The notes beneath the pieces are model-generated. The model did not search any database. It was not told the origin of the DNA and saw only the letters and a list, made by a program, of their open reading frames with translations. 16,515 nt of DNA from Clostridia bacterium (lineage in GTDB: Bacteria > UBA6262 > WVXT01 > JAUXBS01): the NCBI GenBank assembly GCA_030618495.1, contig JAUXDE010000027.1, positions 1-16,515 on the forward strand, given 5' to 3'. How positions within the stretch are numbered: the stretch's first letter is position 1; each line of letters opens with the position of its first letter. Positions 10,300 to 12,172 of this stretch are shown one piece after another. A program made the translations under genes and the position numbers.

Positions 10300-11070
10300 T
10301 TACTTTAGCCCCAGGACATCACTCATATCATACATCCCCGCGGGCTGGGAAATTACCCATTTTGCCGCCCTTACTGCCCCGTTACTGAAACATTCGCGTG
10401 ACTGCGCCCTGTGAGTGATTTCCATCCTTTCCACATCACCGGCAAAAATAATCGTATGATCCCCTATTATACTGCCGCCCCTGACAGCATGGATACCTAT
10501 TTCCTCCCGATTTCTTTCTGCTTTTTTTCCCTTCCTGCCAAAAATAATTTTTTCCATTCCCTTTACTTCAGCAATGTTCTCAGCCAACTTATACGCCGTA
10601 CCAGATGGAGCATCCTTCTTTTTATTATGATGAGCTTCTATTATCTCCACGTCATAACCTTCAAAAACCCCGGCGATTTCCCTCACCAGTTTAAACAAAA
10701 GGTTCATCCCCACTCCCCAGTTCGGAGCCTTCACACACGGAATGTTAACAGCTATTCGGTTTATCTGTTTTATTTCATCGCCTGAGAACCCCGTTGCGCC
10801 GACAACAAACGCTTTTCTTGCTTTTTTCGCTATTTCAAGATTTTCCAGTGTAGCCTGCTGGTTGGTAAAATCTATAACAACATCCCCATTGTCTATGACC
10901 TCTTCCAGGCTGTCCACAAGATTGACTTTTCCTGTCACAATTTCTCCCAGTCTTTTGTGACCTTTTACTTCAACAGCGCCGCTCAACTCTGATTCAGGTT
11001 CACTTTTGATAATATCAACTATGTTACTACCCATCCTGCCCATCGCCCCGCAAACAATTATCTTTACCAT
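10300..11070 (-). CDS. dapB: 4-hydroxy-tetrahydrodipicolinate reductase (DapB)
   Basis: DapB reduces the DapA product to tetrahydrodipicolinate with NAD(P)H in lysine and diaminopimelate synthesis. From the ATG at 11070 it is 256 residues, a typical length. It has the nucleotide-binding GAMGRMG (8-14), the substrate region EAHHNKKKDAPSGTA with the catalytic His-His and the Lys/DAPSGT loop, and a C-terminal AAKWV segment. The frame is open for 54 more codons upstream, but those lie in a mobile-element-like insertion and look like no DapB. The ATG at 11070 has AGAAGGG 5 nt upstream, so this start is firm. FAH follows after 5 nt. The stop is TAA. Confidence 0.97.
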   Translation of the reverse strand: MVKIIVCGAMGRMGSNIVDIIKSEPESELSGAVEVKGHKRLGEIVTGKVNLVDSLEEVIDNGDVVIDFTNQQATLENLEIAKKARKAFVVGATGFSGDEIKQINRIAVNIPCVKAPNWGVGMNLLFKLVREIAGVFEGYDVEIIEAHHNKKKDAPSGTAYKLAENIAEVKGMEKIIFGRKGKKAERNREEIGIHAVRGGSIIGDHTIIFAGDVERMEITHRAQSRECFSNGAVRAAKWVISQPAGMYDMSDVLGLK

Positions 11071-11087: not shown

Positions 11088-11285
11088 TAAGTGTGGTACT
11101 TTTAACATATCTTGACATTTGCTGGAAACATTTTGCTTCATAGTCAAGGCTCGAGGAGCGCGGTGTATCCGCTGCGATACATAAGCGACGAGTAACGCCG
11201 ACGATGAACAAAAGGCGACAGTCTTTCGACAAGCTCAGGATCTGCGACCCTTCATATGTAAAGCTATGTTAGAAACACCACTCTA
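11088..11285. mobile_element. MITE-like element between dapA and dapB
   Basis: The left end (11090-11121) and the reverse complement of the right end (11253-11283) form imperfect terminal inverted repeats. By eye the two arms agree at about 23 of 29 aligned positions, sharing GTGGT, TAACATA, CTT, ACAT and TG blocks. A TA dinucleotide flanks each side (11088-11089 and 11284-11285), as expected for a TA target duplication. The inside (131 bp) encodes no protein. It contains a hairpin TGTATC-CGCTGC-GATACA (11164-11181), several GCGAC blocks and TTCGACAAGCTCAGG (11225-11239), a short motif I recall as common in interspersed repeats of environmental bacteria. The right TA is part of the dapA stop codon. 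No transposase is present, so it would need one in trans; IS630/mariner-type enzymes use TA targets. The class is inferred. Confidence 0.65.
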
Positions 11286-12155
11286 TATCAAAGCATAACT
11301 CTTTAACGCCTTCTTTAACTTCCCTATATTGTCATCCGACATGGAACACAATGGCAGTCTCATTTCATCCGATATCATGCCCATGAGGCCCATGGCTGTC
11401 TTCACCGGGATAGGATTGGTTTCATAAAACATCGCCTTCACAAGCGGGAATAATTTCAGGTGCAACCTCCGCGCTTCCGTAACATCCCCCTTATCGAACG
11501 CATCAACCATTGCCTTTACTTCCCCGGGAACAATATTCGCCACTACAGATATCACGCCTTTACCCCCGGCAGACATGATTGGCAGGGTAAGAGCGTCATC
11601 GCCGGAAAGTACATCAAAACCGTCACCGCAGGCCGCAACTATTTCGCTCGCCTGGTCTATATTTCCGCTTGCCTCTTTTACCCCAACGATGTTTTTTATT
11701 TTTGCCAGCTCAATAATCGTTGACGGCAGCATGTTTATCCCCGTACGGCCCTGGATATTATACAATATGATGGGAATATCAACTTCGTCCGCTATTTTTT
11801 TAAAATGAAGAAATAAACCCTTCTGCGTGGGCTTGTTATAGTACGGCACGACAATCAGAACACCGTCAGCCCCAGCCTTTTTTGCAAACCCTGTCATCTC
11901 CAGCGCTTCGTTCGTGCAGTTGGAACCCGTACCCGCAATAACCTTGATTTTTCCCCCTGCCGCCTTAACCACCGTATCAATAACCTCTTCATTCTCCTTG
12001 ATTGAAAGTGTTGCGGATTCGCCTGTCGTACCGCATGGAACCAGCGCATCGGTACCGTTCTTGATATGAAATTCAACAAGTTCCCTTAACTTCCCAAAAT
12101 CCACTTTGCCGTCCTTAAACGGCGTTACCAGCGCTACGCATGAACCTGAAAACAT
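11283..12155 (-). CDS. dapA: 4-hydroxy-tetrahydrodipicolinate synthase (DapA)
   Basis: DapA condenses pyruvate with aspartate semialdehyde, the committed step toward lysine and diaminopimelate. From the ATG at 12155 it is 290 residues, close to the E. coli length. It shows the TIM-barrel motifs VTPF (10-13), GTTGES (42-47), YYNKP (105-109), YNIQGRTG (132-139, with Tyr132 and Arg137) and VGVKEASGN (157-165, Schiff-base Lys160). YNIQ replaces the more common YN[VI]P, a minor variation. The frame opens 7 codons earlier at a TTG, but AAGGAG (12162-12167) sits 6 nt before the ATG at 12155 and decides the start. dapF ends 17 nt upstream. The stop is TAG, formed across the edge of the inserted element, and ends the protein at the family length. 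Confidence 0.97.
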   Translation of the reverse strand: MFSGSCVALVTPFKDGKVDFGKLRELVEFHIKNGTDALVPCGTTGESATLSIKENEEVIDTVVKAAGGKIKVIAGTGSNCTNEALEMTGFAKKAGADGVLIVVPYYNKPTQKGLFLHFKKIADEVDIPIILYNIQGRTGINMLPSTIIELAKIKNIVGVKEASGNIDQASEIVAACGDGFDVLSGDDALTLPIMSAGGKGVISVVANIVPGEVKAMVDAFDKGDVTEARRLHLKLFPLVKAMFYETNPIPVKTAMGLMGMISDEMRLPLCSMSDDNIGKLKKALKSYALI

Positions 12156-12172
12156 ATTCCGCTCCTTCTTTC

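Follow-up and report, generated by a model that had tools for sequence, protein, structure and literature searches.

A dispersed TA-flanked repeat family and its probable insertion at the dapA stop codon of an uncultured bacterium

MITEs are a well-known class of element, and the class includes insertions in operons, as for Chunjie (PMC10969869), and at gene 3′ ends, as for QMITE2 (PMC5896051). Chunjie, from Geobacter uraniireducens, is non-coding, measures 178–235 bp, and occurs in about 38 copies in addition to partial ones, with one copy located in an operon (PMC10969869). Correia/NEMIS, ERIC, and RUP span approximately 100–200 bp, carry terminal inverted repeats (TIRs) and a terminal TA, and lie in transcribed intergenic regions, where they yield long stem-loop transcripts (PMC2229807, PMC3049150). 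In Coxiella burnetii, QMITE2 is located at a gene 3′ end and affects the stop codon of enhC (PMC5896051).

In this study, we analyzed a window of 16,515 nucleotides, the whole stretch of DNA under examination, in which the dapA–dapB junction harbors a repeat of this type. Based on the evidence below, a non-autonomous, TA-targeting MITE very probably entered this junction, most simply after the split from the congener compared here. Similar to Chunjie, the copies of this family are intergenic, vary in size, and include an operon insertion. However, the host differs, the dap insertion is positioned at a stop codon, and the likeness is one of description, not of TIR sequence. The family also resembles Correia/NEMIS, ERIC, and RUP in size, TIRs, TA termini, and stem-loops, as compared by description rather than by alignment. 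In contrast to those elements, its host belongs to an unrelated uncultured lineage, and while RUP is linked to an IS630 transposase, the IS630 domain is absent here. QMITE2 lengthens its protein by 33 residues, whereas the length of DapA is unaltered and no more than the third base of its stop codon would have changed. The locus would represent a clean case, readable from the sequence, of a small transposable element in a biosynthetic operon, with both genes and their signals intact and a stop codon partly made by the element.

The dapA–dapB junction

The dapA, dapB, and dapF genes were confirmed by Pfam. The dapF and dapA genes are closely packed, and the next gene follows dapB within 6 bp. 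In this tightly packed operon, the dapA–dapB gap of 212 nt is conspicuous. The features of the junction are as follows:

10300–11070, minus strand: dapB (dihydrodipicolinate reductase), ATG start; PF01113 and PF05173
11076–11082, minus strand: probable dapB ribosome binding site AGAAGGG, read from the sequence, outside the element
11088–11089: flanking TA on the dapB side, one base farther out than in the family consensus
11090–11283, minus strand: putative MITE copy, 194 bp between both TA pairs, delimited by sequence, own-genome family matches, and full-copy extraction
11091–11283: family core within the dap copy, 193 bp, oriented with dap transcription
11091–11121, plus strand: terminal inverted repeat on the dapB side, GTGTGGTACTTTTAACATATCTTGACATTTG
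11253–11283, minus strand: terminal inverted repeat on the dapA side, GAGTGGTGTTTCTAACATAGCTTTACATATG
11283–11285, minus strand: present dapA stop TAG, its G supplied by the element
11284–11285: flanking TA on the dapA side, equal to bases 1–2 of the present dapA stop
11283–12158, minus strand: dapA (dihydrodipicolinate synthase), ATG start; PF00701, E 3e-102

On the minus strand, dapA ends in TTG ATA TAG, with the stop codon at 11285–11283. The G at 11283 is the first base of the element, and the TA before it occupies 11285–11284. At the dapB side, the element ends in GTACCACAC (to 11091), followed by T (11090), TA (11089–11088), ACGAAAGAAGGGTAAAA, and the dapB ATG (11070–11068). In-silico deletion of the 194 bp together with one TA gives ATA TAA CGAAAGAAGGGTAAAA ATG and places the dapB ATG 16 nt downstream; this reconstruction, proposed in a preliminary description of the window, proved exact on reading. 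Compared with the consensus end TA|GTGTRGTG, the dap copy is one base longer on the dapB side (TTAA|GTGTGG), and its TA duplication would thus be slightly asymmetric. Its own inverted repeats are imperfect, with 41-nt arms that are 73% complementary, and a search with a 9-nt seed returned no match between them. Because these repeats are weak, the single copy is not conclusive, and the family evidence decides. Scanning the dap copy and the one next to recA revealed no promoter, and the terminator-like matches in these two copies are weak.

Mechanistically, a transposase acting in trans would have used the approximately 30-bp inverted repeats to insert the element at the TA of the dapA stop TAA, with ATATAACG / ATATAACGAAAG as the putative pre-insertion allele. 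The TA would have been duplicated, and the dapA stop would have become TAG, composed of TA and the initial base of the element. The insertion would have left the ribosome site and start codon of dapB in place. Such an insertion would do almost no harm, since the G that opens the element completes a TAG stop with the preceding TA and since the ribosome site of dapB is preserved; it would be tolerated since both dapA and dapB are intact. The element would form part of the dap mRNA, in which it is predicted to fold into a long hairpin and would serve as a stem-loop spacer. This spacer may decouple the translation of dapB from that of dapA, or it may make the message accessible to nucleases. By analogy, nuclease cleavage could take place at the hairpin, as with Correia and ERIC (PMC10969869, PMC3049150). 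That dapA now ends in TAG with a third base from the element, as the preliminary description stated, is read directly. The rewriting of TAA to TAG is well supported, but we infer it, because DapA of the congener is only 84% identical and the empty junctions compared all come from other species.

A dispersed family and its empty sites

The family places the dap copy in context. The TIR pattern matches 44 times in the own genome (G000) and 7 times in the congener (G001), with no match for the reversed-pattern control, which upholds the earlier view of a non-coding element of about 194 bp with terminal inverted repeats and TA flanks. BLAST against the own genome recovered 77 matching pieces, the longer of which are approximately 70–92% identical. 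Counted from the contig list, the copies number at least 30 and about 40 at most, a range that arises because many lie at contig ends, where two halves may be one copy. The family TIRs are about 30 bp long and imperfect, the elements are non-coding with no long ORF in common, and all copies can fold into a hairpin. For fourteen copies, a single contig contains the two ends. These copies span 117–265 bp, apart from one of 533 bp that contains a nested second element, and eight of them fall into two size classes with common interiors, namely 190–193 bp and 265 bp. As in MITEs, which typically measure 100–400 bp, the copies are short, lack a transposase gene, share their TIRs, and are dispersed at several sites.

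Additionally, among 28 ends of full copies, 16 directly abut a TA, where the background rate is 6.8% (p ~3e-12). Three copies have TA on both sides, and the dap copy does so if one extra dapB-side base is allowed. These matching ends and TA flanks elsewhere in the genome agree with the TA-targeting, MITE-like insertion originally proposed. For the dap site, we infer that the TA was duplicated, and the precise sequence of the empty allele, from the reconstruction, the congener being too distant.

To place the insertion relative to related genomes, the corresponding junctions were compared. In the sole congener compared, the gene order lysA-dapF-dapA-dapB is identical, and the dapA–dapB junction lacks the element, with a dapA TAA, 20 nt, and the dapB ATG, which comes near the reconstructed junction of TAA and 16 nt; an empty site in a relative was thus found. 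In three further relatives with the same gene order (G002, G003, and G005), dapA ends in TAA before a short gap, and in G004 it ends in TGA. Another copy separates recA from a probable pgpA (L129 1149–1413, G000 contig C10); it is located 14 bp upstream of the recA start and does not include the recA ribosome site. This pgpA–recA site is element-free in the congener, as is the site matching the C13 copy, in alignments that are about 70–73% identical and show absence rather than the exact target base. Filled and empty sites were therefore found at dapA–dapB, pgpA–recA, and C13. Strictly, secondary loss of the element in a congener as distant as this one (DapA 84% identical), instead of insertion here, is conceivable.

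Among 40 relatives searched, matches occurred only in this congener, the sole other member of the genus. An exact-pattern scan of approximately 85,000 GTDB species genomes likewise found the pattern only in the congener MAG CSMAG_2805, and viral contigs, plasmids, and phages contained no relatives of the element. Within the genomes searched, the family appears to be new and restricted to one genus of uncultured bacteria. Two congener contigs, C208 and C47, are near-identical to contigs of the own genome though the genomes are otherwise distant, which suggests probable cross-binning in CSMAG_2805. We rejected them as ancestral shared insertions: they are 99.7–99.9% identical to G000 contigs over 1.6–3 kb, against 84% for DapA, and their coverage is about 38, compared with 20–28 for other element-bearing contigs of the congener.

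Terminal stem, orientation, and alternative readings

The ends of the copies are matched. Within copies, the first 12 bases of both ends agree well above the level of reshuffled pairings (136 versus 116, p ~5e-5). In the 30-pair terminal stem, 93.6% of cells are paired, and two-sided changes occur in 15 cells, compared with 6.4 in shuffles, although related sequences can surpass shuffles without selection on structure. This signal collapses when the alignment is slid by 1–3 columns. Relative to the neighboring gene, the element direction agrees at 43 classified ends and opposes at 11 (both genomes, longest-ORF gene calls), and a hand count in the own genome gave agreement for 22 of 27 ends on the right (p 0.0015) and for 16 of 19 on the left (p 0.0044); in these counts, the two ends of one copy are non-independent and the gene calls are crude. 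On a plain reading, the matched ends reflect subfamilies copied with matched ends, or ends evened by hairpin-templated repair; selection on an RNA stem is a mere possibility.

The terminal stem, the matched ends, and the bias toward the transcribed direction would also suit a structured RNA element, regulatory or involved in processing, that transposition once dispersed and that operons now retain for its RNA function; the transposon anatomy would then reflect its origin and the stem its current role. However, matched ends are equally expected from subfamilies or hairpin-templated repair, and kinship inflates the counts. Moreover, neither the window nor eight copy-bearing loci matched Rfam, and the congener lacks the element at each of the three sites examined, which gives no example of a copy retained at its position; we consider this explanation unlikely. 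Similarly doubtful is the fuller proposal of a genus-restricted repeat whose stem evolves as a base-paired unit, which operons retain in the direction of transcription as an mRNA-processing spacer, and whose lost copies leave a standard 16-bp remnant, TAGTGTRGTGNNNCTA.

The remaining alternatives start from the dap copy or its ends. Its weak inverted repeats might indicate an ordinary intergenic spacer that merely resembles a transposable element, but the recurrence of these ends in dozens of copies across the genome, together with the empty congener junction, already refutes this reading, to which we assign almost no probability. The differences in size and interior among copies could instead point to a decayed insertion sequence remnant peculiar to the dap site, rather than a MITE moved as such. 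Against this, the eight two-ended copies in two size classes with common interiors argue that short forms moved as units, and identical short copies with differing flanks, at odds with such a remnant, were largely seen, which makes it very improbable. Finally, CTAACA/TGTTAG near the element ends recalls attC core sites, and this superficial likeness of subterminal bases could suggest an integron attC-like recombination site. Yet the copies are single and dispersed among ordinary genes, conservation spans 30 bp, beyond the likeness, and TA adjoins the true ends; an attC-like origin is hardly credible. Collectively, the insertion of a TA-targeting MITE is the reading we retain.

Candidate mobilizers, short end motifs, and nested copies

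The preliminary description had also suggested looking for a complete IS that shares the inverted repeats; none with the element ends (such as GTGTRGTGNNNCTAACATANCTTKACAT) was found in the own genome, a 179-contig assembly, or in the congener. Every TIR match inspected continues into repeat sequence without coding capacity or into unrelated DNA at gene borders, and none borders a transposase. A transposase domain search covering PF13358 (IS630, DDE_3), PF01609 (DDE_Tnp_1, IS4/IS5-type), and PF12762 (IS1595) found these domains absent from both genomes, where G000 is 98% complete in 179 pieces and an IS in assembly gaps is possible. Two rve-domain genes occur, in G000 only, and the one scanned combines HTH, rve, and rve_3. 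They were rejected as the mobilizer, since the flanks examined contain no element TIR motif. An autonomous partner with the same ends, a feature of MITEs but not a required one, was accordingly not observed.

With a shorter pattern, approximately 14 further gene-border sites in the own genome carry only TAGTGTRGTGNNNCTA of the element end, followed by unrelated DNA (L104, L106, L112, L113, L115–L119, L122, L158, L168, L181, and L182). TAGTGTRGTG occurs 49 times in the genome, compared with 6 times for the reversed pattern. Both element ends contain CTA, and a deletion from the inner CTA of one to the outer CTA of the other would thus leave exactly TAGTGTRGTGNNNCTA. The sites are probably scars of such deletions between the CTA repeats of the two ends, the alternative being a short motif of independent origin; no locus with both the full and the scar state was seen. 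Together, the matched ends, the orientation bias, and the probable loss scars provide material on how an element may persist without a visible transposase.

The interior of the family is modular, as noted at window 11222–11254 and in copies in C105, C163, C122, and C4: in place of a segment like AGATCCTGAGCTTGTCGAAGG found in some copies, others contain a longer hairpin segment. A second MITE-like family, 269 bp long with ends AGTGTCTTATTAAACAAC, is nested in a first-family copy (L100 1021–1289, G000 contig C1); further copies occur in C151, C157, and C178, and none in the congener. In G000 contig C21 (L009 111–186), one copy has landed inside another member of its own family, at a TAGAATACC site, and this nesting position equals the internal position of the second family in C1.
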